NCBI GenBank assembly: GCA_951799425.1
Contig: OX637394.1
Span: forward strand, 8,815,501-8,879,500
DNA: 64,000 bases
Origin: Ilex aquifolium
Lineage: Eukaryota; Streptophyta; Magnoliopsida; Aquifoliales; Aquifoliaceae
Direction of reading: 5' to 3'
Position numbers and translations under genes: made by a program. Shown piece by piece: positions 15,066 to 48,578 of this stretch. Position 1 is the stretch's first letter, and the number at the start of each line of letters is the position of its first letter. A model generated the notes under the pieces. That model did not search any database. It was not told the DNA's origin and saw only the letters and a list, made by a program, of their open reading frames with translations.

Positions 15066-16399
15066 CATGGGGAGATTTGAACGATCGTGAGGAGATTTGA
15101 TCGATCGTGGGGAGATTCGATCAATACTGGAGACATCTGCAACAATTTGATCGATTAAATATGATTTTGATCCATCAAATCCAATTTTTTTAAAAATTGA
15201 AAAAAATCCATTTTTTATAAAATTGAAAAAAAAAACCAATTTTTGTTTAATGGATTCTTTAAAAAATTGGTTTATTTTTCAATTTTTAAAAAATTGGATT
15301 TTTGATAGATCAATTAAACATATTTGATAAATCAAAAATATTTTTGATCTATCAAACATATTTTTCAATTTTTTTTTTCAAATTTGAATTTTGAAAAAAT
15401 TTGATAGATCAAATGTGATATGTTTAAATATATTTTTTTTATTTTTTTTATAAATTAAATATAAATCGGATGAAATTGATCGCTAGTCTTGATCGCAAGA
15501 CCCAATCTTGATCGCTACCCTTGATTCCTTGATCACTTGATCTCACCTTGATCGATCAAATATACTCAATGATCGTTCATTGAGTTACAGATTAAAAGTT
15601 GAAAGGGCAAGTGGGATTGCGATCGATCAAAAATAAATATGATAGATCATGAATCCACTTCAGTGGTAATGAATCCACTTTTCGTAGTAAATATTTCCAC
15701 ACAAATGTTGTAAACAATCCACTAAAATGGTAAATATTCCCATAAATGTCGTAAAGAATAAATATTCTCACTAATGTTGTAATTTTGTTCTCCTTTTCAG
15801 TATGGTACTAGTCCATGATCGATCAAAACCATATTTGATCGATCATGGACTAGTAATGAATTCACATTTTGTTGTAAATATACCCACAAATTTGATAAAT
15901 ATATCACCGAAATTGTAAATATTTCCACAAATTTGGTAAATCTACAACCGAAGTTGTAAATATTCTCACAAATTTTGTAAATATACCACTGAAATTGTAA
16001 ATATTTCCACAAATTTAGTCCATGATTGATCAAAATCATATTTGATAAATCATGGACTAGTAATGATCGATCAAATGTAGTAAACAATCCACTAAAATTG
16101 TAAATATTCCCATAAATGTAGTAAAAAATTTATTGAAGTTGTAAATATTACCATAATTGTGGTATGAAATCCTATTTCCACAAATTTGGGGAGATTTGAT
16201 CGATCAAAACCTTATTTGATCGATCAATATATCTTTCTGATCGATCAAATTCAATTAAAACTGACTAATTAATCCAATTTTTTTAAAAAAAATTTAAAAA
16301 TTGGAAAAATTTTAAATCCAATTTGAAATTTTTTTTTTTGAAAAACTGGCTTTTTTTTCAAAAAATTTCTAAAATTGGCTTTTTTTTTCTTCAAAAAAT

Positions 16400-17490
16400 T
16401 AGATTTTTTAATTGGATTTTTAAAAATTAACACCAAATTAACATTCAATTCAACAAATTAACACAAAATTAACACTCAATTTCATCTAATTAACATTCAA
16501 TTTTTTCTAATGAACATTTAATTCACGAAATTAACATTCAAATTCAACTAGTTAAAATTAAATTAATCAAATAAATTTTCAATTTCATTCAATTAACACT
16601 CAATTCATCAAATAAACATTCAATTTATCAAATTAACATTCAATTCATCAAATTGACATTCAATTTCATCAAATTAACATGTAATTTCATCAAATCAATA
16701 TCAAATTAACAATAAATTAACATTCAATTCATCAAATTAATATTCAATTCATAAAATTAACACTCAATTTCATCTAATTAACATTCAATTTTTTCTAATA
16801 AGCATTTAATTCACGAAATTAAAATTCGAATTCAACTAGTTAAAATTAAATTAATCAAATAAACTTTCAATTTCATTCAATTAACACTCAATTCATCAAA
16901 TTAACATTCAAATTATCAAATTAACATTCAGATTTATCAAATTGACATTCAATTTCATCAAATTAAGATATAATTTCATCAAATCAACACCAAATTAACA
17001 ACAAATTAACATTCAATTCATCAAATTAATATTCAATTCATAAAATTAACACCAAATTAACACTCAATTTTATCTAATTAACTAATTTATTAAAACTTAA
17101 TTTTATTGACACTCAATTAACTAATTAGATGAAATTGAGTGTTAATTTGATGTCAATTTGATGAATTGAATGTTAATTTGTTGTTAATTTGGTGTTGATT
17201 TGATGAAATTACATGTTAATTTGATGAAATTGAATGTCAATTTGATAAATCTGAATGTTAATTTGATAATTTGAATGTTAATTTGATGAATTGAATATTA
17301 ATTGAATGAAATTGAAAGTTTATTTGATTAATTTAATTTTAACTACTTGAATTTGAATGTTAATTTAGTGAATTAAATGTTTATTAGAATGTTAATTAGA
17401 TGAAATTGAGTGTTAATTTGATGAAATTGAATGTCAATTTGATAAATTTGAATGTTAATTTGATAATTTGAATGTTAATTTTTGTAAATT
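16400..17490. repeat. Palindromic block of AATTAACATTCAATT-type repeats
   Basis: The stretch 16480-16795 is directly repeated at 16790-17090. The latter is inverted again at about 17100-17440, with the axis near 17097. Arms of about 300 bp match in order (AATCAAATAAACTTTCAATT; CATTCAGATTTATCAAATT; CAACACCAAATTAACAAC). It would form a very long hairpin and is the core of the foldback element. Confidence 0.85.
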
Positions 17491-19087
17491 TGAAAAAATC
17501 CAATTTTTGTTTAATGATAAAAAATATTTGTTTAATGATCTATCAAACATATTTTTGATCTATCAATTAAAAAATCCAATTTTTGAAAAAAAATTTAAAA
17601 AATTGGTTTTTTTTCAATTTTTAAAAAATTGGATTTTTTTTTCAATTTTTAAAAAATTGGATTTTTTTCAATTTTTAAAAAATTGGATTTTTAATAGATC
17701 AATTAAACATATTTGATAGATCAAACATATTTTTGATCTATCAAACATATTTTTCAAATTTGAATTTTAAAAAAATTTGATAGATTAAATGTGATATGTT
17801 TAAATATTTTTTTATTTTTTTTATATAAATTAAATATAAGTCGATGAAATTAATCCCAATCTTGATTGCTAGTCTTGATCGCAAGACCCAATCTTGATCG
17901 CTACCTTGATCCCTTGATCGCATGATCCCAATCTTGATCGCTAGATCTCACCTTGATCGATCAAATATACTCAATGATCGATCATTGAGTTACAGATGTA
18001 GAAGTTGAGGATTGCGATCGATCGAAAATAAATATGATAGATCATGAATCAAGTGGTAATGAATCCACTTTTCGTTGTAAAGATTTCCACAAATATAGTA
18101 AACAATTCACTAAAGTTGTAAATATTCCCATAAATGTAATAATGAATCCATTGAAGTTGTAAATATTGCCACTAATGTTGTAATTTTGTTATCCTTTTCG
18201 GAATGGTACTAGTCCATGATCGATCAAATATGGTTTTGATCGATCATGGACTAGTAATGAATCCACTTTTTGTTGTAAAAATTTTCACAAATTTGGTAAA
18301 CAAAACCATTGAAGTTGTAAATATTCCCACAAATTTAGTAAACATACCACTGAAGTTGTAAATATTCCCACAAATTCTGTAAATATACCAATGAAGTTGT
18401 AAATATTCCCACAAATTTGGTAAATATTCCCACATATTTTGTAATTTTATTCACTAATGTTGTAAAATTTTCACTAATGTTGTAATTTTGTTCACTATAG
18501 TCGTAAACTTCTCACTAATGTTGTAATTTTGCCCTCAAGTCAATAATGACGGCTTTTCTTTATGTCTTGTCTTGTCATTTCAATGTCCTGTCCGGTGTCA
18601 TTTCAATGTCATTGAAGTTGTAAATAATCCATAAATTTAGTAAATTATACCATTGAAGTTGTAAAAGGGAATTTGTAAATATTCATTATAGTTGTAAATA
18701 TTCATTACTTGTCCATGATCGATCAAATAGGGTTTTGATCGATCATGGACTAGTACCATACCGAAAAGGAGAATAAAATTACAACATTAGTGGGAATATA
18801 TATTCTTTACGACATTTATGGGAATATTTACCATTTTAATGGATTGTTTACCACATTTGTGTGGAAATCTTTATAACGAAAAGTGGATTCATTACCACTG
18901 AAGTGGATTCATGATCTATCATATTTATTTTCGATAGATCGCAATCCCACTTGCCCCTTCAACTTCTAATCTGTAGCTCAATGATCGATTATTGAGTATA
19001 TTTGATCGATCGAGGTGAGATCTAGCGATCAAGATTGGGATCAAGGAATCAAGGGTAGCGATCAAGATTGGGTCTTGCGATCAAGAC

Positions 19088-19640
19088 TAGGGGTGTTCAC
19101 CCTACCCTACGGGTAAGAAATATGCTCTTCCGTCTTCCTACCCGATACTTTGTAGAAGAATTTTTTCTTAACTTACCCTACCCGACAGGTGTGGTATTCC
19201 TACCCGACTTTCTACCCGATTAATCGGGTAGGAAGTCGGGTAGGAAATTGGGTAAATATTTTTGTAACTATTAATTTTTGAATGCACCAATTGAACAACA
19301 CAATAAATCAATAACACTAAAATCTAAAACAACTACAACAACAATTATAATAAAACACAAGAAAGTATGAACATCAATCCACAATAATTGTTACACAAAT
19401 ACAATAACAATTAATTTAAGTTTAAACCATATAAAATACATTAAAATCATATTAATTAATTAATGCGGGTAGGGTAGGGTAGGGTAGGAATGCGGAAATT
19501 GATAACTCTTCCGCATTCCTACCCGATTTAATCGGAAGACCAAAAACTCTTCCGCATTCCTACTCGATTTTTGCGGCTAATCATTTAGTAGGTCGGGTAG
19601 GGTAAGAACTTGCGGCTAGTCGGAAATTTGAACACCCCTA
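19088..19640. mobile_element. hAT MITE, 553 bp, inside the foldback right arm
   Basis: The terminal inverted repeats TAGGGGTGTTCA / TGAACACCCCTA are flanked by the 8-bp duplication ATCAAGAC (19080-19087 and 19641-19648). Eight-base duplications and TAGGG ends mark the hAT superfamily. The interior has paired words of the TACCCGATTTAATCGG kind and no coding region. A second family member begins at 63884. Confidence 0.92.
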
Positions 19641-20486
19641 ATCAAGACTAGCGATCAATTTCATCCGATTTATATTTAATTTATATAAAAAATAAAAAAA
19701 AATATTTAAACATATCACATTTGATCTATCAAATTTTTTTAAAATTCAAATTTGAAAAAAAAAATTTGAAAAATATGTTTGATCTATCAAATATGTTTAA
19801 TTGATCTATTGAAAAAAAACCAATTTTTTAAAGAATTCATTAAACAAAAATTGGTTTTTTTTTCAAATTTAAAAAAAATGGATTTTTTTTCAATTTTTAA
19901 AAAATTGGATTTGATTGATCAAAATCATATTTAATCGATCAAATTGTTGCAGATGTCCCCAGTATTGATCGAATCTCCCCACGATTGATCGAATCTCCCC
20001 ACGATCGATCAAATCTCCTCACGATCGATTAAATCTCTCTATGAAGTTGTAAATATTTGAATCCATTGAAGTTGTAAAGATTTCCACAAATTTGGTAAAC
20101 ATATAACTGAAGTTGTAAATATTCTCACAAATTCTGTAAATATACCATTGAAATTGTAAATATTCCCACAAATTTGGTAAATATTCTCACATATTTTGTA
20201 ATTTTATTCACTAATGTTGTAAAATTTTCACTAATGTTGTAATTTTGTTCACTATAGTCGTAAGCTTCCAACTAATGTTGTAATTTTGCCCTCAAGTCAA
20301 TAATGACGGCTTTTCTTTATGTCTTGTCTTGTCATTTCAATGTCTTGTCCGGTGTCATTTCAATATCATTGAAATTGTAAATAATCCATAAATTTAATAA
20401 ATTATACCATTGAGGTTGTAAAAGGGAATTTTCGGTATGGTACCGAAAATTCCAATGGATGTATTGTAGCCCGGTCCAGAAAAGAG

Positions 20487-21641
20487 AAGGAGGGCGGCTG
20501 TGTGTTTGGTTTTCTGGGCTAAAGGCAGACGACGAAACAGAGGAAAAGAATTGCTGATGGCCGCCGGTTTGTTTTATATTTTTGGGAGATTTTTGTTGTC
20601 CATTATATTTATGGGTAACTAAATTCTCTGGTAGAGCGAGGGATGAACTTGCACAGTAAATAATATTTTATTTATTTTTAATTTATGCATTTGATTTTCA
20701 ATTACTAAAACTCTTTTGTTTTATCATTCTCAATTCATTGTTGATGTTTTCTTCTCCGAATAGTCATATAATTTATTTTGTTTATGGATTCAGTCATACT
20801 TTTTCTATTGAATGGATTAATTCTTTGATTATGTTTGGATCAATTATTTATCTATATTGATTTAATTCTTTGCTGCAATATTATTTTTTGAGTATATTGT
20901 CGTCGTTGGACTTTCTCAATAGTGATAATAATTTACGTATTTTCAAAGTGGTGAATGATTTTTCAAAGGGTTACATTTGGTTTAGTCTTGGTTTATAAAT
21001 CTATACCTTCCGATTGGGAATTTTGGGAATTGAATTCCTAATTGAGTTATTCAATGAATTAAGAATAATTAAAATACTAGATGTGTGCAAGGGATTCTTG
21101 ACGCTTTACCGTTTGTCAAATTTGAGTACTTTTTTCGTTAGTTACTTTGCTTCACTTTAATTTACATTTAAAATTAATCTTTGTTCTCTAGTAATCATCT
21201 AATATTTTTCTTTAGTTTCTTTGTTCTTGTCTACTATTCTTTTAGTTTGTCTCTCTGTGGAATCGACACCCCAAAGCTGTGCTACAATTACCGCGTTAGT
21301 CTTTGGGCGTAATCAGTATCCAACAAATGGAATCAAGTCTGACGTAGTTCATGATTTTAGGAATTTAATTGAAGGTGATTTGGAATTTCGACTATGCCCA
21401 AGGTAGTTCCTGGACTGCCTACGTATCCAAAAATGGAATCAAGTTGTACGTAGTTCGAAATTTTGAATTTTTATTTGAATGGAGTTTTAAATGAGTGAAT
21501 GACTCATTTAATTTGAAATTTTACTTGATTTGGTTTGAAATGGGTGAGTGACCCATTATTTTTTTTGGGAAAAGAATTTAGAGTTGGTCAAATCTAGGGA
21601 TTCACTTAAACTTTTGAATGAATATGAAATTTAATTCCAGT
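20487..21641. other. Retroelement-derived non-coding DNA to the right of the foldback element
   Basis: This continues the sequence interrupted at 12014. At about 21245-21300 it carries the words GTGGAATCGACACCCC and GTGCTACAATTACCGCG, and at about 21390-21470 GACTGCCTACGTATCC and ACGTAGTTC. I know such words from untranslated parts of plant LTR elements. No protein-coding part is visible. The element is broken and its right border is unclear. Confidence 0.45.
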
Positions 21642-23075
21642 GAGGTTAGGGACCTCGTGTGAGTTAGAAACTCCGAAAATTTATTAACAGTCCACAACTC
21701 TCCTCATAAACATCAAAGAGTTAGAAATTCCAAAAATTTATTAAGAGTCCAAGACTCTTTTCATAAACATCATTGAGTAAGTTTAAAACTCTAAAAATTG
21801 GTAAAGAGTTAGAAACTAACTCTTTTATTTAATATTTGTGCCATTTAATTTGTAGGAGTTTAAAACTCCAAAAACAGCAAGGGATTTTAATAATTGAATT
21901 AATGTAGCATCTATCCAAAAGAGTCCAAGACTTCTTGTTTCGATTTTCATGCAATTTTGGAGGGCCTAAGGCTTTGTGTTGTTCTGCAATATGATAGGAG
22001 TTAGAAACTCCAAGTTACTTGTCTAGAGTCTAAGACTCTTGACTTTTGCCGAAAATGGGCCGAAGGCTCTCACTACCCCAACAGAACATATGCTTTCTTG
22101 CAACTCCTTTTTTTTATATCCATTTCTTTCTTTTTCTTACACACTTCAAGTGCACAATCTTTAGATCATAAAGCAACCAGGAGGTACTAAACCGAGCAGA
22201 AAAGAAGTAATTTAGCAGTGGGCGTTAGAGAAGGTTTGCAACAAACCAAATGGGGAGGTGAGAGAAAGTTTAAAACTCCACTAAAGTCGAAGATTAAAAT
22301 TTTTATAAAACTAGTAGATAAACTTCGGACAATTTGTTACGGAGTCAAAGACTCCATATTCATTCTTTAAGAGTTAGAAACTCCTGCCTATGGTTTTAGA
22401 AAAACCAAAATCAAAATGGGAGTTGGAAACTCCTTTCAAAAGAACTGGTAGACTTCGGCGAAAGGCATCGAAATTAAAATATAGTCCCAAAACTCTTTTT
22501 GACAATTTTTAGCAAATTAATGTAGCGGTATTTTGCATGCTCTTCCGATTTGGCCCTTAATTTTTTCTTAAGGAGTCAAAGACTCCAAATTTATTTTCAA
22601 GAGTTAGAAACTCTTTTATAAAACTCCTTTGAAAGGAAATGGAAACTCCATTGAAAGAGTCTAAAAACTCTTGAGAGGGAAGTTTGAAACTCCATTGAAA
22701 GGAAATGGTCGTCTTCGACAAAAGGCATCAGAATTAAAAGAGTGCAAGACTCTTGCTGATTCTGAAACACTTTTGTCTATACACCGCAACGGAGGAATTG
22801 GAAGAGGCCCAATGAGCAGTGCTAAAGTGAACAGAAAATAAGCATTTTCGCGTTGGCGCAATGGTTTCGAAAGAGTCGAAAACTCTTATTGAGCGACACC
22901 ATGGTCTCCAAGGAGTCAAAGACTCCAATATGTGCCTGTTTTTCTTGGGTATTGCAGCAAAATTTGGACGACTTATAAACTCCTTTGGTCTTTCATTTGA
23001 AGAGAACTCTACTGCCATCTCAGAAACACTTGGTGGTAGTTACGCCGCAATGCATCGAAGGAGTTAAAAACTCCT
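21642..23075. repeat. Array of about twenty short hairpins with varying but still pairing stems
   Basis: Dispersed 13-21-nt inverted repeats share one design: a 5-9-bp stem around a loop of usually three purine-rich bases. Examples (stem in capitals) are GAGGTtagggACCTC (21642), GAGTTagaAACTC (21661), AAGAGTCcaaGACTCTT (21743), AAGAGTTAGaaaCTAACTC (21804, one base pair longer each way), GGAGTTtaaAACTCC (21855), AGAGTCtaaGACTCT (22025), GGAGTCaaaGACTCC (22341, 22572 and about 22913), GGTTTTagaAAAACC (22392), GGAGTTggaAACTCC (22419) and AGGAGTTaaaAACTCCT (23059). Both halves of a stem change together. A longer frame (GTAGACTTCGGCGAAAGGCAT) recurs near 22447 and 22709. Function unknown. Confidence 0.8.
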
Positions 23076-23770
23076 ATAATCTGTAACTTCGGAGAGATTT
23101 GGTATAGCTGCAATTGCTTCGGATTGCTATGGTTTTTCACCGAATTGCTGCTATCAAAGATTGAAAAAAAAAAATTTAAATCGACAAAGAAAAGAGTAAA
23201 CAGATTTTTTTTTTCTTCCTTCTCCTCTCTCTGCCGAAATTTCCCTTTTGTTTGCCCACTGTTTTTTTTTTTCCTTTGATCACCGTCCGAAAACCCTCCC
23301 CAAATCTCTTCTCTTGCTGAATTTTTTTTCTTTTGTTAATCGTCTCCAAAAACTCTCCTTTGATAACCGTCCGAAATTCCTCCTTTGATCCCCTCCTCAT
23401 CAAGTATATTTATAGGAAGATTTTTGCATGCAAGGGGGGCAGTTGGCAACCTTCCACCAACCCCACCAAGTCTTATTTGTAAGCAAATGGTGTAGTGGGG
23501 AGTTTGGAAAAAAAACCGCCCCTAACTCTCGGCTCTCCATTTTCTTTTTTTTTTCTTTTTTTTCACAACATAGAGCTTTTAAAATTCATAAGGATAAATT
23601 TTAGTGGGTCATATTGAAATGTGCAATTTGGCAATTGAATTTGAAGGATCAAGTTAACGATCAATAATTCAACGAAATCACGCGTCGAGCATGAACCCGT
23701 CATTAATCTCCTAAAATAAAATTTTGCATCGAAAGTTGACGAGTGCTGAATTTTTTCGTTTAACAATCCT
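23076..23770. other. Pyrimidine-rich retroelement-derived sequence, no gene
   Basis: On the minus strand it begins TGTTAAACG at about 23765, next to the LINE remnant. A TATA-like CCTATAAATATAC follows near 23405-23417, then three copies of a TTTCGGACGGTT-ATCAAAGG-like word (about 23270-23390). This looks like the upstream half of an LTR read on the minus strand, but I found no partner LTR. The few reading frames here are low-complexity. Confidence 0.4.
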
Positions 23771-23903: not shown

Positions 23904-26900
23904 TGTTAAAAATAGAATTGTTAAAAATAGAATACTAAATAATACTTTGTTGTTAAGTGTATCTAGTTGACTTGGGAACACAAGGGGTCATGTCTTGGGT
24001 CTTGTTATGTGGTTAATGGTCTAGGAAAGTGAGTGGTCAAGATGTATCTTACAACCTATATGTATGTTGAAGATATGAAATACATGTATGGAAAACTATT
24101 CCAAAAAGACTAAGTTATATTGTCTTTGTTTTATCTATCACAAATATACAAGGGCTGAAATTACAGCCAACATAAGTGGTATCAGAGCTAGTTCGATTCT
24201 AACTAGCTGGGCATGAAATTTCTCGTTGGATAAACAAAGTCCTAGTGAAGAAGATTGAAATGGCAAGTGGAATCAACATGTCTACCGGTGCACAACAACC
24301 TCCTTTTCCCGTCTTTGATGGTGAAAATTATGATTATTGGTGTATCAAGATGAAAATTATATTTCTCTCTTATGATCTTTCAGATTTGATTGAAATTGGA
24401 TATGAAGATACAACCGAAGAGATGACAACGCAGATGACAATAGCTCAAAGGAACCAATTAAAGGAAAACAAGAAGAAGGATGCAAAGGCTCTTCACTTGA
24501 TTCAACAAGGAGTAACAGACACAATTTTTCCAAGAATTATCAATGCTACAAAATCAAAGGTAGCATGAGACACTTTACAAGATGAGTATCGTGGTACTAC
24601 GAAGGTAAGAGCCGTGAAACTACAATCCTTGAGAAGAGATTTTGAGAATAGTAGAATGAAAGAGAATGAATCATTAAATGATTTCTTCTCTAGACTTATG
24701 GAGATTGTAAATCAAAGGAAAACTTATGGAGACCAAATTTTGGACTCAAGAATTGTTGAGAAAATTTTGATTAGTTTGCCGGAAAAATATGATTCTATTG
24801 TTTCCATCATTGAAGAAACCAAAGATATTTCTTCTTTGGGTGTTCAAGAATTATTTGGTTCTATTAAAACATTTGAGCAAAGGTTGAGTAGGCATGCCGA
24901 AAAATCTGTTGAGAGTGCTTTTCAATCCAAGCTTAATGTTAACTCCAAAAGTCATGAATCCTCGAGTTCCAATCAATCTAAAGGTGAATCTTTTAGAGGG
25001 GGAAGATTAGGAAGAGGAAGTGGAAGAAATTCAAGAGGAAGAGGAAATTTTGAAAGAAGATCAAATGAAGAATCCATTCAACAAAAGTGTGGAATTTGTA
25101 AAAGATCAAGTCATGTTGATAAAAATTGTTGGTTTCGTGGAAAGTCTCAATGTTTTAATTGCAAAAAGTTTGATCATTTGCAAAAAGATTGCCGGTTCAA
25201 GAATAATCAACAATCTAATTTTTCCGAAGAGCAAGAAAGTAGTGGAAACATGTTCTATGCTTGTCAAGTAATGTCCGAGCAAAGGAATGATGTATGGTAT
25301 CTTGATAGTGGTTGTAGTAACCATATGACCAGTGATGATAATATTTTTGTGAACATGGACACCACTTCTAATTCTCAAGTAAGGATGGGAAATGGTATCA
25401 TGGTTCAAGCAAAAGGCAAGGGAACCATTGCTATTGAAACAAAGAGAGGAACAAAATACATCAAAGATGTTTTATTAGTACCGGACTTTGAACAAAATTT
25501 GTTGAGTGTTGGTCAACTTGTAGAGCATGGGTACTCCGTGGTGTTTGAAGACAACTCTTGCATGATCTATGATTGTGGGGAAAAAAAGCAATTTATAGCG
25601 AAAATTGAGATGGAGAAAAACAGAAATTTTCCTCTCATTTTTCAGTATTCAAACAATGTTTCTTTGAAGATGGAAGTTGTTGATGATTCTTGGCTTTGAC
25701 ATAGAAGATTTGGACACTTGAACTTTCAAAGCTTGAAGATCCTACAACAAAAGAACATGGTTTATGGATTGCCATCTATACAAGAAGTTAAAGAAGTTTG
25801 TGAATGATGTGCACTTGAAAAGCATCATCGAGATCCTTTTCCAAAAGAAAAAGTTTGGAGAGCCAAATCACCGTTGGAGCTTGTTCACACCGATGTATGG
25901 GGACCGTCAAGAACACTTTCTCATGGAGGTAACAAATACTTCATAATCTTTGTTGATGACTTGGTTTTTACTGGGAATGACCAAAAAATGATTGATAATT
26001 TTAAAAGTGAGATGATGAAAAGATATGAAATGAGTGATTTGTGATTTCTACATTACTTCTTGGGCATTGAAATTTATCAACAAGAAGATGGAGTTTTTAT
26101 TTGCCAAAGGAAGTATGCAAAAACTCTTCTTGAAAAATTTAGGATGAGAAATTGCAAATCGGTGACTACACCTTTGGTTGTGAATGAAAAATTGTTAAAA
26201 GATGATGGAACTAAAGAAGTTGAAACATCTTTTTATAGAAGCTTGGTTGGAAGTCTTTTGTACTTGACAGCTACAAGACCGGACATCATGTATGCTACAA
26301 GTTTGTTATCTCGGTTTATGCACAAACCAAGCCAAATTCATTTTGGGGCAGCAAAGAGAGTGTTGAAATATATTCAAGGAACACTTGATTTTGGGATTAT
26401 GTTTGAAAGAAAAATTGATGTCAAGTTAATTGGATTTTGTGATAGTGATTGGGCCGGAAACATTGACGATATGAGGAGCACTTCGGGCTATGCATTCTCA
26501 CTTGGTTCCGGTGTAATTTCATGGGTGTCGAAGAAGCAACAAAGTGTGGCACAATCATCAGCTGAAGCTGAATATATTTCAGCATCATTGTCTACTTCTC
26601 AAACAATTTGGTTAAGAAGAATATTGGAAGATATTGGTGAAAAGCAAGATGAAACAACTCCAATTTTATGTGATAATAAATCAGCTATCGCCATGACAAA
26701 GAATCTCGTCTATCATAGCCGAACTAAGCATATTGCAATCAAGCATCACTTTATTCGAGAAGCCGTGGAAGATGAAGAGATTCAAGTCAAATATTGCAAG
26801 ACCGAAGATCAAGTGGTGGACATTTTTACCAAAGCACTTCCTAAAGATTAGTTCGAGTTTCTAAGAGACATGTTAGGAATACAACAACAAAGCATTAAGG

Positions 26901-27167
26901 GGGAGTGTTAAAAATATAATTGTTAAAAATAGAATACTAGATAATACTTTGTTGTTAAGTGTATCTAGTTCACTTGGGAACACAAGGGGTCATATCTTGG
27001 GTCTTGTGATGTGGTTAATGGTCTAGGAAAATGAGTGGTCAAAATGTATCTTGCAACCTATATGTATGTTGAAGATATGAAATACATGTATGAAAAATTA
27101 TTCCAAAAAGACTAAGTTATATTGACTTTGTTTTATCTATCACAAATATACAAGGGCTGAATTAACA
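23904..27167 (+). mobile_element. Ty1/Copia retrotransposon fossil, broken
   Basis: LTRs of about 262 bp lie at 23904 to about 24172 and 26906-27167; both start TGTTAAAAATA. A methionine-tRNA primer site (TGGTATCAGAGC) lies at about 24177 and the purine tract AAGGGGGAG just before the right LTR. Recognisable parts in order are a gag region (from about 24260, with the zinc knuckle CFNCKKFDHLQKDC), a protease motif (WYLDSGCSNHMT near 25295) and the RNase H region (about 26060-26850, with SSAEAEYIS). It is clearly shorter than a whole Copia element and carries several breaks, so it is not active. About a dozen LTR differences put the insertion at a few million years. It interrupts a LINE zf-RVT sequence. 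I saw no target duplication. Confidence 0.9.
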
Positions 27168-27435
27168 CTCCATATGAGCGAATAAAGATCATTCCCCAAG
27201 CCCTGTTCTCTAGCAAGACCCCAGACAGATTTAACAATGAAAACCCCAGATGGAGTGCACTGCCAAATCCACTTATCTTCAGAATCAGAGAGACATAAAC
27301 TAAAATTCACAATCACATCCCTCACCAACATAGGCAACTATTCCTCCAATTTATCTAAAACCCAGTTTGAGTTAACAAAAAGATCAGCAATTTTAGGAAA
27401 ATTTCAAGGCATATTATCCATCCTATCAAGCAACA
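27168..27435 (-). pseudogene. LINE remnant: first half of a zf-RVT domain
   Basis: On the minus strand from about 27345 it reads CLSDSEDKWIWQCTPSGVFI and then VKSVWGLAREQG, the start of a plant LINE zf-RVT domain (D-x-W-x-W ... G-x-F-x-V-K-S). Its natural continuation is at 23771-23903 across the Copia element. An in-frame stop lies upstream (near 27340), so the LINE was already dead. The right border lies next to the duplicated 3' flank of P450 copy B. Confidence 0.7.
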
Positions 27436-34589: not shown

Positions 34590-35391
34590 ATATATATAAT
34601 AAAGTAATTTATAATTCAAATTTCAAAAATAAATAAAATAATTTTTGTTTTTTACGGTTCAGATCGTTTTAAATTTAACTTTAAAGTTAATCTAACGGCT
34701 AATATTAACACTCTAAATTTAATATGAAAAATAGGCCCCTAAGGATGTGTTTGAAATGACTTTTTAAAAATACTTTTAAAAATTATTTCTTATAAGTACT
34801 TTAAAAAAAAAAATAGTGTTTAAAACCGTCCCACCACCACTACCTCTGCCACCACCACTGCCACCGTCGCCACCACTATCGCCACCACCATTGTCGCCAC
34901 CGTCACCGTCACCGCCACTGCTGCCGTCGCTGCCACCACCACCGCCATCGTCATCGCCATCGTTATTGCTGTCGCCACCACCACCACTGTCGCCGTCGCC
35001 ACCACCACCACACCGCCATTGTCATAGCCGTCGCCACCACCACCACCATCACCACCACCACCACCATCACCACCACCACGGCCACCATCGCCACCACCAC
35101 CACCATTGCCACCATCCCCACCACCACCGCCATCACCACCACCGCCGTTGTCCCCGTCGCCGTCGCTGTCGCCGCTGCCATCACCGGCGCCACCACCACC
35201 GCCACCACGGTCATTGCTACCCACCACAACCGTCTCCTACTACCACAACCTCTCACCCCCATTACAACCGATGCTTAAATTCATTTATCTCTCCTCTATG
35301 TTTGTGATTTGATTTTGAATATGAATACAAATATGTTTATTGTTTATCATTTTTTATTACTCTGTACCTTCAGGCACAGACAATAACTAGT
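34590..35391 (+). mobile_element. Non-autonomous Helitron carrying a CCA/CCG triplet array (copy 1)
   Basis: The 3' end is CAATAACTAGT (CTAGT at 35387-35391), preceded by the hairpin TCTGTaCCTtcAGGcACAGA, and is followed by T. The CTRRT end with a nearby hairpin and no target duplication is the Helitron signature. The body matches the copies at 47205 and 47787 (GCGGTTCAGATCG-type block; TTAATCTAACGGCTAATATT; AAGTACTT-TAAAAA). The region 34826-35250 is a degenerate CCACCG/CCACCA array, so the Pro-, His- and Gly-rich frames across it are not genes. The 5' end is approximate because it lies in a TA run. Confidence 0.75.
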
Positions 35392-37776: not shown

Positions 37777-39324
37777 GTTACTGACAAGTCCAAATTTGAC
37801 CGGGCCGAGCCCAACTTGAACGGACCGAGAAACCCCAAAGGGATACTATTCGGAGCTGGGCCGTAAAACAATACAGAGGGCATAAAGGGAATTAGGCGGC
37901 TGTAAAACAATACGGAGGGCACAAAGGTAATTAGGCGACCGTAAAACAATACGGAGGACACAAAGGTAATTAGGCGGCCGCAAATCAATACGGAGTCCAA
38001 AGAACCCAAGCCCAAGGACGAAGGGGCGCCGCCCATGGGAGGCCACCCGCTTGGCCACGCCCAAGGGGGCGCCGCCCATGTAGGCACCTGCCTTGATCTC
38101 CTCTTCCTTTGCCTCCTGATTCCAATGAAGCCTCCTACAACTCAAGCCTAGCCCACTCCAACTCAAGCCTAGTCCAGTTTAGAACCTCCTCCGACGGAAT
38201 AGGGACACGAGGGAGAAAATATCGGGATACGCACCGGAGATCTAATCCTACCATAACTGTACTTACCAAAGTGGTGGAATCCTACCATAACTATACTTAC
38301 CAAAACAATGGTGACCGCCTCAACTCACCGCCTTAGTGAACCTATATAATGTAAGCTCTCTCTCTTGGAGAGGCATCTTGAGATCTACACACATGTTCAT
38401 CACCTCCTTGAGACCTCTACACCAAGTCTCTCTCCCTCTTTCCACCGAGAGCTTTGCACCAAGTCTCTCTCCCTCAATACACTGTAACTCTCCGGAGTAC
38501 CATTATTCATCAATAAAGAACATCAGGCCACCGCTGCCGTTCCCGAGAGTGGACGTAGGTCAACCGGACCGAACCACTATAAATCTCTGTGTTGATTATC
38601 TGTTTACAGTTTTGATTCATTGATTGTCATTGATTGCTCGTTAATTACTCGTTAATTGCATCACTATTCATACTTGACTGTTGATCTTGCCAAAGACAAT
38701 TTTGTGCATCATCAGTTTGGCGCCATCTGTGGGAAACGACTAAGTGTTCTACCACCTTGCTATTCCATGGCAATCACTACCAGATCAATGAGTCAACAGC
38801 CCGAGGACAACAACCCGGCTCACTGGGAGGAGGTTCCGCCTCCCCCCGCACCTTCGAGACCTTCTGCCACGGCGACTCCCGTCGTCGGACATCAACAACT
38901 CTTGCAGACCATGCAACTGCTCCAAGGAGGCGTCACCTCACCCTATGGGAAGAGCCCCACTCACCCTAACAAGAGAAGAGCAACAACCTAATCACCCAGG
39001 GCACCAAGCAGCACCCCGCCATGGAGGCCTCGCCAGAGCGCCCCAAGGCCACACCAGGGTACCCCTCGCCCAGTAGTCCCTCCTCAGCATACAGGGAACT
39101 CACATGTTCCCCCTCCTCATGTACCTGCGTAGAAGGACGAGAGAGAATGCCAATGACTCTCATCTATCCTTTATCGTTTTAGATTATTTATTCTGTTATT
39201 TATTATTTTATGAAATAACTTTCTACGAAGATTATTGTGTCCAGAATTGTTGTGCTTTCCTAAAATTTACAGACAGCTTACAAAAGTCTGAACATGATCT
39301 AGCAACAAGGTAGACAAAAGACGA

Positions 39325-39565
39325 GGGGTCTCGCCCCCTCTTACCAGGCACCCAGCCTCAGGCGCCCAATCTCAGGCACCCAGCAGCAGATGTCCAATCT
39401 CAGGCACCCAGCCTCAGGCGCCTAGCCTCAGGCACCTAGCCTCATGCGCCCAATCTCAGGCGCCCAAAAACAGGTGCCCAGTCTCAGGCGTCTAGCCTCA
39501 TGCGCCTAGCAGCTGATGCCCAACACAAGGCGCCCAGCAGCAGGGGCCCACCAGGCGCCCAGCTC
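39325..39565. repeat. Tandem CAGGCRCCCAGCCT repeat inside the LARD
   Basis: About twenty copies of a ~12-bp CTCAGGCGCCCAG-type word. Non-coding. Confidence 0.85.
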
Positions 39566-39944
39566 CTCAGCATCATCTTTCATCTCCTCCATCTCTATGG
39601 AGTGAGCCTCTGGCCTAGTAGCTCTCTCAAGTGCTACTCAAAGGTCAGCCCCAAGTTGAGCAGCCCTTTCATGCGCTAGCCTCAACTTCTCAGCAGCATC
39701 CTCTCGTGCCTGCCGTGCAAGCTACGCAGCATCCTCTCGTGCCTATCGCTCAAACCTTAACTGTTCTTCAGCAGCCTCATGTGCCCGCCTCTCCGCTGCC
39801 TGGACATCCATTGACTTCTTGATCTTCAGCGTATTTGTAAACAATCAGGGCAAAACAGCAGCTACCTATAGGCATTCAAAACCAAAAATATAAAGAAAGA
39901 AAGTCAAGTACAAAGCCAAAGAGGAGTGCGGGACACACTTAGTA

Positions 39945-40250
39945 AGCCTATGCTACGACAGTCATCACCCGAGACTATACGTAGCTCGGCCTATGACTCT
40001 GCTCTCGCGCAAATAGTCACCTAATAAGCCTCTGCTACGGCAGCCATCACCCGAGACTATACGTAGCTCGGCCTATGACTCTGCTCTCGCGCAAGTAGTC
40101 ACCTAATAAGTCTCTGCTACGGCAGCCATCACCCTAGACTATACGTAGCTCGGCCTATGACTTTGCTCTCGCGCAAGTAGTCACCTTGAAAGCCTCTGCT
40201 AAGGCAGCCATCTCCCGAAACTATACGTAGCTCGGCCTTTGATCATGCGG
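39945..40250. repeat. ~80-bp unit repeated four times inside the LARD
   Basis: Each unit has TCTGCTACGGCAGCCATCAC, ACTATACGTAGCTCGGCC and CTCTCGCGCAAGTAGTCACC. Units start near 39950, 40029, 40110 and 40192. Confidence 0.85.
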
Positions 40251-47204: not shown

Positions 47205-47786
47205 TATATATATATATATATATAATAAAGTAGCTTACAATTCAAATTTCAAAAATAAATAAAATAATTTTTGTTTTTTGCGGTTCAGATCGCTTTAAAT
47301 TTTACTTTAAAGTTAATCTAACGGCTAATATTAACACCCTAAATTTAATAGGAAAAATAGACCCCTAAGGGTGTGTTTGAAGTGACTTTTTAAAAGTACT
47401 TCTAAAAATTATTTCTCATAAGTACTTTAAAAAAAAAATAGTGTTTGAAACCGCCCCACCACTATCTCTACCACCACCACCGCCACCACCACTACCTCTA
47501 CCACTACCGCCGCCACCATCACCGCCACCACCACCATCGCCACTACCGCCGTTGTCGTTGCCCCCATTGCTACTGCCACCACCGTCGCCCCCACCACGGT
47601 CATTGCCACCAACTACAACCATCACCGTCTCCTACCACCACCACCTATCACCTCCACTACAACCGATGCTTAAATTCATTTATCTTTCATCTATGTTTGT
47701 GATTTGATTTTGGATATGAATACAAATATGTTTATTTTTTATCATTTTTTATTACTCTTTGCTTTCAGGCACAGGCAATAACTAGT
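47205..47786 (+). mobile_element. Non-autonomous Helitron with triplet array (copy 2)
   Basis: Same family as 34590-35391. It ends AATAACTAGT at 47786 after GGCACAGG. The array of CCACCR triplets is at about 47450-47640. It is joined directly at its 3' end to the next copy. Confidence 0.75.
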
Positions 47787-48578
47787 ATATAATAAAGTAG
47801 CTTACAATTCAAATTTCAAAAAATAAACAAAAATGACTTTTGCTTTTCGCGGTTCAGAACACTTTAAATTTTACTTTAAAATTAATCTAACGGCTAATAT
47901 TAACACCCTAAATTTAATAGGAAAAATAGTCCCCTAAGGGTGTGTTTAGAGTGACTTTTTAAAAGTACTTCTAGAAATTATTTATCATAAGTACTTTAAA
48001 AAAAAAATAGTGATTGAAACTGCTGCACCACTACCTTTACCACCACCACCACCACCTCCACTACCACTACCTCTACCACCACCGCCGTCTCCGCCACCAC
48101 CACCGTCGTCGCAGCCACCACCACCGCCATCCTTATAGCCATCGCCGCCACCACCATCGTCGCTGTCGCCATCGCCACCACCACCACCACCACCACCGTC
48201 GCCAGCGTCGTCGCCGCCACCACCACCGCCGCCATCGCCATCGCCACCACCATTGTCGCCGCCACCGTTGCCACCACTATCACCGCCGCCCTCGCCACCG
48301 TTGCCGTCGTCGCTGCCACCACCACCATCGTCGTCACCACCGTCGCCGCCGCCACCACCGATGCCATCGTCGTCGCCGCCACCACGGTCATTGCCACCCA
48401 CCACCACCATCACCATCTCCTACCACCACCACCTCTCACCCCCCACTACAACCGATGCTTAAATTAATTCATTTGTCTCTCCTCTATTTTTGTTATTTGA
48501 TTTTGGATATGAATACAATATGTTTATTGTTTACCATTTTTTATTATTCTATACCTTCAGGCACAGGCAATAACTAAT
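47787..48578 (+). mobile_element. Non-autonomous Helitron with triplet array (copy 3), tandem to copy 2
   Basis: It starts ATATAATAAAGTAGCTTAC immediately after the CTAGT of copy 2 and ends AATAACTAAT (CTAAT, still CTRRT) at 48578. The triplet array is at 48025-48440. The His-, Pro- and Gly-rich frames over it are not genes. Confidence 0.75.

Follow-up and report, generated by a model that had tools for sequence, protein, structure and literature searches.

Here, we describe an array of mini-hairpins within the LTR of a Tat-lineage Ty3/gypsy retrotransposon of Ilex aquifolium, located in a stretch of 64,000 nt (assembly GCA_951799425.1, contig OX637394.1, positions 8,815,501-8,879,500) that is hereafter called the window and from whose first letter positions are counted. 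The array occupies 21487-23075 on the minus strand, in a predicted R/U5 leader, as delimited by shuffle counts and by mapping hairpins in other copies of the element; read in sense, its unit is a stem of 5-10 bp with a Y-R closing pair and a U-Y-N triloop. Comparison of the copies supports selection on pairing and on the first loop base, U1, while the element copied itself, and we give a probability of roughly 0.5 to the reading that the array is a cis-acting, multivalent set of stem-loops in the RNA leader of the element, bound by Gag or by a host protein.

An earlier note, made from the letters of the window, had described a string of short inverted repeats at 21642-23075 and proposed counting them against shuffled sequence of the same dinucleotide content. 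The string is real and extends further, to 21487. In 21642-23075, compared with 300 dinucleotide shuffles of that segment and with each loop size counted apart, 25 perfect hairpins with stems of at least 5 bp and loops of 3-5 bases were found versus 6.49 ± 2.39 in the shuffles (maximum 17). Loop-3 hairpins alone numbered 18 versus 2.58 ± 1.49 (maximum 8), and those with stems of at least 6 bp 14 versus 0.76. Loop-4 hairpins were not enriched in this segment (2 versus 2.61), and the 20 loop-5 hairpins (2.58 in shuffles) include the 14 triloop hairpins with stems of at least 6 bp, recounted with the closing pair open. The three-base loops of the earlier note are borne out; what it called purine-rich loops are, given that the minus strand is the sense strand, mostly U-Y-N, that is, pyrimidine, in the sense RNA. 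The GGCC/GGCY stems that it also listed have fewer than 5 perfect pairs with loops of 3-5 bases and are absent from the hairpin list. A coding array was rejected, with no ORF of at least 150 aa in the region, and Rfam models at gathering score gave 0 matches in the 64-kb window, that is, no known RNA family.

Read in sense, from high to low window positions and all on the minus strand, the array opens with AGGAGTT-ttt-AACTCCT (23059-23075). GGAGTC-ttt-GACTCC occurs at 22912-22926, 22572-22586, and 22341-22355, and GAGTT-tct-AACTC at 22371-22383 and 21661-21673; AAGAGTT-tct-AACTCTT (22599-22615), GGAGTT-tcc-AACTCC (22419-22433), and AGAGTC-tta-GACTCT (22025-22039) follow the same pattern. Different stems are found in a weak hairpin, TCCTT-tca-AAGGA (22625-22637), in TGGTTTT-tct-AAAACCA (22391-22407), and in GGTTTG-ttg-CAAACC (22233-22247). 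The hairpins GGAGTT-tct-AACTCC (21997-22011), GGAGTT-tta-AACTCC (21855-21869), and AAGAGTC-ttg-GACTCTT (21743-21759) could be aligned across copies, and the 10-bp hairpin AAAGAGTTAG-ttt-CTAACTCTTT (21803-21825) aligns with TAAAGAGTT-tct-AACTCTTTA of other copies. Beyond the segment described earlier lie two more hairpins, both with 5-base loops: the last but one, AATGGGT-cactc-ACCCATT, with a 7-bp stem (21539-21557), and the terminal one, TTAAATGAGT-cattc-ACTCATTTAA, with a 10-bp stem (21487-21511).

The setting had been called non-coding and retroelement-like, correctly, and can now be specified as the LTR of a Tat-lineage gypsy element. The genome (800 Mb, 103 contigs) was searched with the array region, which yielded at least 45 matches from 40 scored candidates (119 in a first look); one of the matches beyond the window itself was a full-length copy at 97%. 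Among 20 loci of 9.9 kb each that were compared, most share parts of 21316-22040 and several also parts of 23059-23766, at about 63-75% identity, with the nearest copies higher, and the middle of the LTR is more variable between copies than these shared end parts. By homology to copies with complete LTRs, the window LTR spans 21316-23765 (minus strand); its sense sequence begins TGTTAAACG at 23765, and it is cut at the 3' (PBS-side) end, 21316, by another element. Different repeat families match either side of 21316, and the missing U5 end beyond this point was not found elsewhere in the window.

In several copies, the LTR ends read TGTTGGGC... and ...CGTTTAACA in window orientation, which gives TG...CA termini in sense, and 5-bp target duplications flank single LTRs on both sides (ACTTG in L024, CATTC in L023). 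In L025, L026, L033, L034, and L037, the LTR abuts GYGTGCCAAAAACCA instead (window orientation); read in sense, the LTR runs TGTTAAACG...CCCAACA and is followed by TGGTTTTTGGCAC, a TGG-starting, PBS-like stretch. The LTR is 2,699-2,970 bp long in six copies with both ends; outside 2.7-3.0 kb are L025 (1,290 bp, shortened) and L026 (5,084 bp, with an insert). The C2 element has two LTRs (L037 and L027), carries AAAAT on both outer sides, and measures 17.8 kb end to end; its LTRs show 32 differences over 2,747 aligned sites, plus 215 gap columns, and they enclose a pol of the same orientation. An antisense frame of 717 aa that encodes a plant mobile domain (PF10536, E 1.9e-25) occupies the gap between pol and the 3' LTR of this element (L027:219-2369, minus strand). 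Upstream of its 3' LTR, L009 has two adjacent open frames, the first with RT_RNaseH and the second with RVT_3, Integrase_H2C2, and rve; the 584-aa frame of L009 matches the C2 element at 96% identity. The order RT_RNaseH, RVT_3, integrase, with its dual RNase H, is what we take to be the criterion of the Tat lineage. Because of this domain order in L009, and with TG...CA LTRs and 5-bp duplications, the host is, to judge from its sequence features, a member of the Tat lineage of Ty3/gypsy.

Attribution of the array to the neighboring copia element was rejected: this element (23904-27178), which adjoins the LTR, is a separate insertion with its own 273-nt repeats (23904-24176 and 26906-27178, 93% alike) and contains gag/Pol_BBD (24614-25699) and a sub-threshold RVT_2 trace (26060-26851). 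Other repeats in the window include 41-bp tandem units in several blocks at 15661-20179, together with a 300-nt repeat whose copies (95% alike) are 1,757 bp apart; two related arrays about 12.4 kb apart (34821-35244 and 47431-48364), with steps mostly of 9-18 bp, which coincide in part with short open frames of 163 and 187 aa; and a 14-bp, CAGGCACCCAGCCT-like tandem array at 39317-39554, followed by an 82-bp repeat at 39936-40242.

The PBS-like stretch, the word TATAAATA, and the orientation of pol identify the window minus strand as the sense strand, and the same three features led us to reject a plus-strand reading of the element. The TATA box TATAAATA, an exact word match, lies about 360 nt into the sense LTR (23407-23414, minus strand), and the exact word is found in the first 400 nt of seven of the 12 copies examined, the window included. 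Transcription is predicted to start shortly downstream. In those seven copies, the first UYN hairpin with a stem of at least 6 bp follows TATAAATA at about 270-415 nt, which would place the array in R/U5, in the 5' leader, a few hundred nt past the predicted start. Zoned at fixed distances, all 11 LTRs together, of which L013, L020, and L028 may be missing some of U3, held 143 UYN hairpins in the 20.3 kb of their middles and 3 each in the first 400 nt (4.4 kb) and the last 600 nt (6.6 kb). An earlier three-zone table based on the TATA box left out the four of the 11 LTRs without a TATA match, and its TATA places are spurious in L028 (11) and differ from the exact TATAAATA in L027 and L037 (282 and 286 versus 353 and 357). 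The internal region of three elements contained one UYN hairpin in 9.7 kb. Every one of the 11 LTRs that extend to the 3' end has AATAAA about 72 nt before it, and R may therefore be long, in which case the array could also fall in the 3' UTR.

The design of the unit was surveyed in 28 copies (61.9 kb of LTR and 172.8 kb of flank; stems of at least 6 bp), with LTR spans set by hand and some of them, for example in L026 and L033, including unaligned stretches. Triloop hairpins occur at 4.70/kb in LTRs, compared with a flank density of 0.80/kb. Loops of 4, 6, and 8 bases are hardly enriched (1.00, 0.81, and 1.00/kb versus 0.80, 0.80, and 0.73), and the enrichment of 5- and 7-base loops (4.26 and 1.86/kb versus 0.76 and 0.72) partly reflects triloop hairpins with inner pairs open. 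A U at the first loop base is found in 251 of the 291 LTR triloop hairpins, compared with 59 of the 138 from flanks. U-Y-N loops, in all eight forms, make up 241 of the 291. Stems in the 28 copies comprise 44 distinct 6-mers, and the closing pair is Y-R in 232 of the 241 (U-A 180, C-G 52; the others are G-C, 5, and A-U, 4). Each of 11 LTRs carries 8-18 UYN hairpins (stems of at least 6 bp) with 5-8 distinct stems, and copies with unlike middles carry different stem sets of one design, such as TGGTCTT-UCA in L023/L024 and GGAGTC-UUU with TGGTTTT-UCU in the window. In five pol relatives at 40-55% identity (L038-L042), whose LTR bounds are not fixed, the 5.5 kb that follow integrase contained no array, and the total of 27.5 kb had only 2 isolated UYN hairpins. 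One of these distant relatives has a 55-bp tandem array after pol (L041:160-991, plus strand) and also numerous hairpins with loops of 4 and 6 bases (20 and 28, stems of at least 6 bp), not the U-Y-N triloops.

Across the genome, the closing pair switches in step between T-A and C-G. The pattern GGAGTY-UYN-RACTCC matched 542 sites versus 45 for the reversed pattern, counting a site inherited by many copies many times. The closing pair was matched at 509 of them (T-A 413, obtained by subtraction, control 26; C-G 96, control 0) and mismatched at 33 versus 19 in the control (T·G 11 versus 7; C·A 22 versus 12), where independent halves would give about 178 mismatched sites. A second pattern, TGGTCTT-UYN-AAGACCA, matched 192 sites versus 1 for its control.

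Pairing at orthologous stems was assessed in an alignment (A1) of 23 copies over the part that they share best, with nine hairpins, 63 pairs, and a reference structure from L024, which favors that copy. Of the 26 copies with hits, 17 were aligned first; six of the remaining nine entered A1 with coordinates set by hand, and L033, L035, and L036 were left out. Cells that pair made up 92.4% versus 91.2 in shuffles, and further pair types in A1 were not above shuffles (36 versus 36.9). Double-changed cells that still pair numbered 24 versus 8.8 ± 2.7 (0 of 500 shuffles as high; 5-16 when slid by 1-3 columns), and pairs holding a compensated change 11 versus 5.5 ± 1.8 (2 of 500; 5-8 when slid), with the qualification that this shuffle control leaves relatedness in and that kinship inflates compensation counts. 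For instance, TAAAGAGTT/AACTCTTTA is changed in a compensatory manner to TAAAGAATT/AATTCTTTA in L031 and L034 and to TAAAAAGTT/AACTTTTTA in L017; at another place, four stems are found (GGGTC/GACCC, GAATC/GATTC, GAGTC/GACTC, and AAGTC/GACTT), and several other copies are mismatched there. A pairwise count, which skips copy pairs with fewer than 150 aligned positions and hairpins not aligned gap-free, had 80 of 93 double changes compensated (86%) versus 42% in controls, a figure inflated by relatedness.

On a tree of flank columns, with all branches pooled, the compensatory excess was small, 8 events at the 63 stem pairs versus 20 at 327 control pairs, and breaks were equally frequent in stem and control pairs (1.76 versus 1.80 per pair). 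The branches differ. Among the 23 copies, changes per column on internal branches were 0.365 in stems, 0.862 in flanks, and 0.000 at loop base 1 (7 columns), with loop bases 2 and 3 changing freely (1.14 and 1.29); on terminal branches, the rates were 0.825 in stems, 0.967 in flanks, and 0.429 at loop base 1 (3 changes). Departures from pairing were compensated in 6 of 29 cases in stems versus 11 of 304 in control pairs on internal branches, and in 2 of 90 versus 12 of 453 on terminal ones. The test was repeated with 38 copies (15 added, some of them near-duplicates, C15) and four reference structures, after columns below 70% occupancy were dropped; 6, 8, 2, and 6 hairpins entered per reference, and reference L014 says little. 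Internal stem rates were 0.518, 0.423, 0.500, and 0.658 versus 1.107 in flanks, and terminal stem rates 0.894, 0.979, 1.038, and 1.092 versus 1.057. Loop base 1 had zero internal changes for all four references (5, 5, 2, and 5 columns), and loop base 3 was slower for one (0.6 versus 1.11 in flanks, internal). With columns treated as independent, the internal/terminal contrast gave Fisher p values of 0.004, 8e-6, 0.023, and 0.006, and internal compensation (4/28, 2/25, 0/10, and 6/30 versus 8/278 in control pairs) gave 0.017, 0.2, 1, and 0.0009. The compensatory excess at orthologous stems is thus modest and dependent on the reference, being significant for two of the four.

As we read the tree, internal branches represent the replicating lineage and terminal branches dead copies, such that stems appear constrained first and decay nearly neutrally afterwards. 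Slow stems and a fixed loop base 1 on internal branches, together with the covariation of the closing pair, support the interpretation that pairing and U1 were under selection while the element copied itself. The earlier suggestion that pairing itself was kept fares well in this light, with stems at 0.4-0.6 times the flank rate, or about half, internally and near the flank rate terminally, and with a closing pair that covaries genome-wide. Its statement that both halves change together needs division: compensatory changes do occur at orthologous stems, but the stem changes of single copies are for the most part decay on one side. The test of covariation in related copies that it proposed gave an excess of double-changed, pairing cells in A1, which relatedness inflates, and a modest one per branch.

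RNA as the acting form is favored, from sequence, by the place of the array after the TATA box, the polarity of the loop, and the fixed loop base. The counts of wobble pairs do not add to this. Pairing in sense-strand RNA predicts an excess of G·U over A·C, and the stems show none: G·U and A·C fill 46 and 44 cells of mini-hairpin stems, their internal-branch counts are 8/8, 6/9, 3/4, and 8/8 for the four references (91/65 in control pairs), the closing pair is T·G at 11 sites and C·A at 22, and one-mismatch hairpins of unique sequence give 20 versus 30, 18 versus 11, and 7 versus 6 (stems of 6, 7, and 8 bp). A side count of units that follow the loop rule on the antisense strand gave 3 versus 22 at stem 7. 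The pairwise count gave G·U 213 versus A·C 112, but with related copies counted repeatedly. Both strands also fold well, with z scores of -4.04 (sense) and -5.06 (antisense) for window 22000-22999 (20 shuffles each) and mean pair probabilities in context of 0.40-0.74 and 0.45-0.68 in five copies; only some of the hairpins are predicted to be the dominant fold in their context. RNAalifold outlined an outer helix around one mini-hairpin (A1 columns 212-217 with 251-256, CACTAT...ATAGTG around GGAGTTTTAAACTCC) that covaries in the sense strand (G·U 22 cells, A·C 3), with few independent changes; we regard it as a lead, and some mini-hairpins may be parts of larger structures.

That the hairpins act as DNA instead, in the form of cruciforms, palindromic protein sites past the promoter, or hairpins in single-stranded cDNA, we consider unlikely, even though the near-equality of G·U and A·C is what would be expected if both strands or Watson-Crick geometry mattered, both strands fold well, and the position of the array, past the TATA box, would suit downstream promoter elements. 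Dimeric protein sites need neither halves that change together nor a first loop base fixed on one strand, the first 400 nt of the LTR hold few UYN hairpins, and perfect arms as short as 5-10 bp form cruciforms poorly.

The earlier note had also offered a copying process that regenerates palindromes. Its general form loses ground to the invariant loop base 1 and to dead copies, in which no repair is seen; a process confined to reverse transcription, in which template switching makes or repairs palindromes (quasi-palindrome correction) and local duplication multiplies them without function, would act on internal branches only, as observed, and is improbable. Local duplications are indeed present (62 nt at 81%, 57 nt at 84%), and L023 has repeated TGGTCTT-TCA-AAGACCA units, many of them 36-47 bp apart. 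This process leaves unexplained, however, the invariance of loop base 1 next to bases 2 and 3 that mostly change freely, the loop length of 3, the Y-R closing pair, and the stop of the array at the leader ends. Least probable of all is a purely inherited pattern, in which a few ancestral palindromes were spread by duplication and kept by ancestry without selection: much of the stem variety does lie between paralogous units of one array, the copies are related and the shuffle control keeps that relatedness, and whole-tree breakage of stems equals that of control pairs, but the internal/terminal split removes much of the kinship effect and leaves the stem constraint in place (Fisher p 8e-6 to 0.023), loop base 1 is invariant on internal branches, and mismatched closing pairs are near the reversed-pattern background (11 and 22 versus 7 and 12).

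Under the preferred reading, a multivalent stem-loop array in the leader RNA, the stem sequence would be free to change as long as pairing holds, with loop base 1 fixed, and the roughly 8-18 units per LTR (stems of at least 6 bp) would form a multivalent platform in the genomic RNA that is read through U1, the Y-R closing pair, and the shape of the helix. The likeliest putative reader is the element's own Gag/nucleocapsid, for packaging or dimerization; alternatively, a host RNA-binding protein might act on export or translation. More tentatively, the array might represent a new type of cis-acting retroelement signal, a long array of interchangeable U-Y-N hairpins, variable in copy number and read by loop and shape, that provides multivalent, possibly condensate- or capsid-nucleating, RNA recognition. 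To our knowledge, little is understood of the way in which LTR retrotransposons of plants mark their RNA for packaging as opposed to translation; if the array is this signal, it would offer a compact, testable motif (stem plus U-Y-N), of which one genome supplies a natural set of stem variants. Comparing replicating branches with dead copies also gives a clean view of selection on noncoding structure inside transposons.

The Tat lineage, which we take to comprise Ogre, Retand, and TatI-III among plant Ty3/gypsy LTR retrotransposons, is matched by the second RNase H (RVT_3) between RT_RNaseH and integrase and by an antisense ORF between pol and the 3' LTR. Retand LTRs measure 315-1,194 bp, and nearly all Retand elements carry an antisense TRP28 ORF, which two Helianthus clusters lack, according to the portions consulted of PMC11963269. 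Unlike these elements, the six copies with both ends have LTRs of 2.7-3.0 kb, and L027 has a plant mobile domain in its antisense ORF in place of TRP28; the same portions do not mention a mini-hairpin array, with 0 occurrences of "hairpin" (PMC11963269). Within the parts surveyed of the open-licence literature on hairpins or stem-loops in LTR or plant retrotransposons, no such array was described, and the LTR sequence string had no match in open-licence papers; the judgment "apparently undescribed" holds to that extent.

The small palindromic repeats of organelles, such as fungal double-hairpin elements, are dispersed and mobile and have changing stems; the array resembles them in its many small palindromes with changing stems and differs in that, among the copies compared, the units are confined to one leader segment of one element family. 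Plant pararetroviruses have a leader with a large hairpin and uORFs that supports ribosome shunting, and they share with the Ilex element a long structured leader in a reverse-transcribing plant element, with one large hairpin in place of a string of mini-hairpins. Roquin-type proteins recognize stem-loops with pyrimidine-purine-pyrimidine triloops and free stem sequence; small stems of variable sequence with a triloop are common to both, and the loop class is U-Y-N here versus Y-R-Y. In retroviruses, the R-U5 leader contains a few distinct packaging and dimerization hairpins with constrained loop bases and covarying stems. Conserved short stem-loops with fixed loop bases and covarying stems are likewise found here, in a leader predicted from the putative transcription start; unlike the few and distinct retroviral hairpins, they form a series of about 8-18 similar units over about 1.5 kb.
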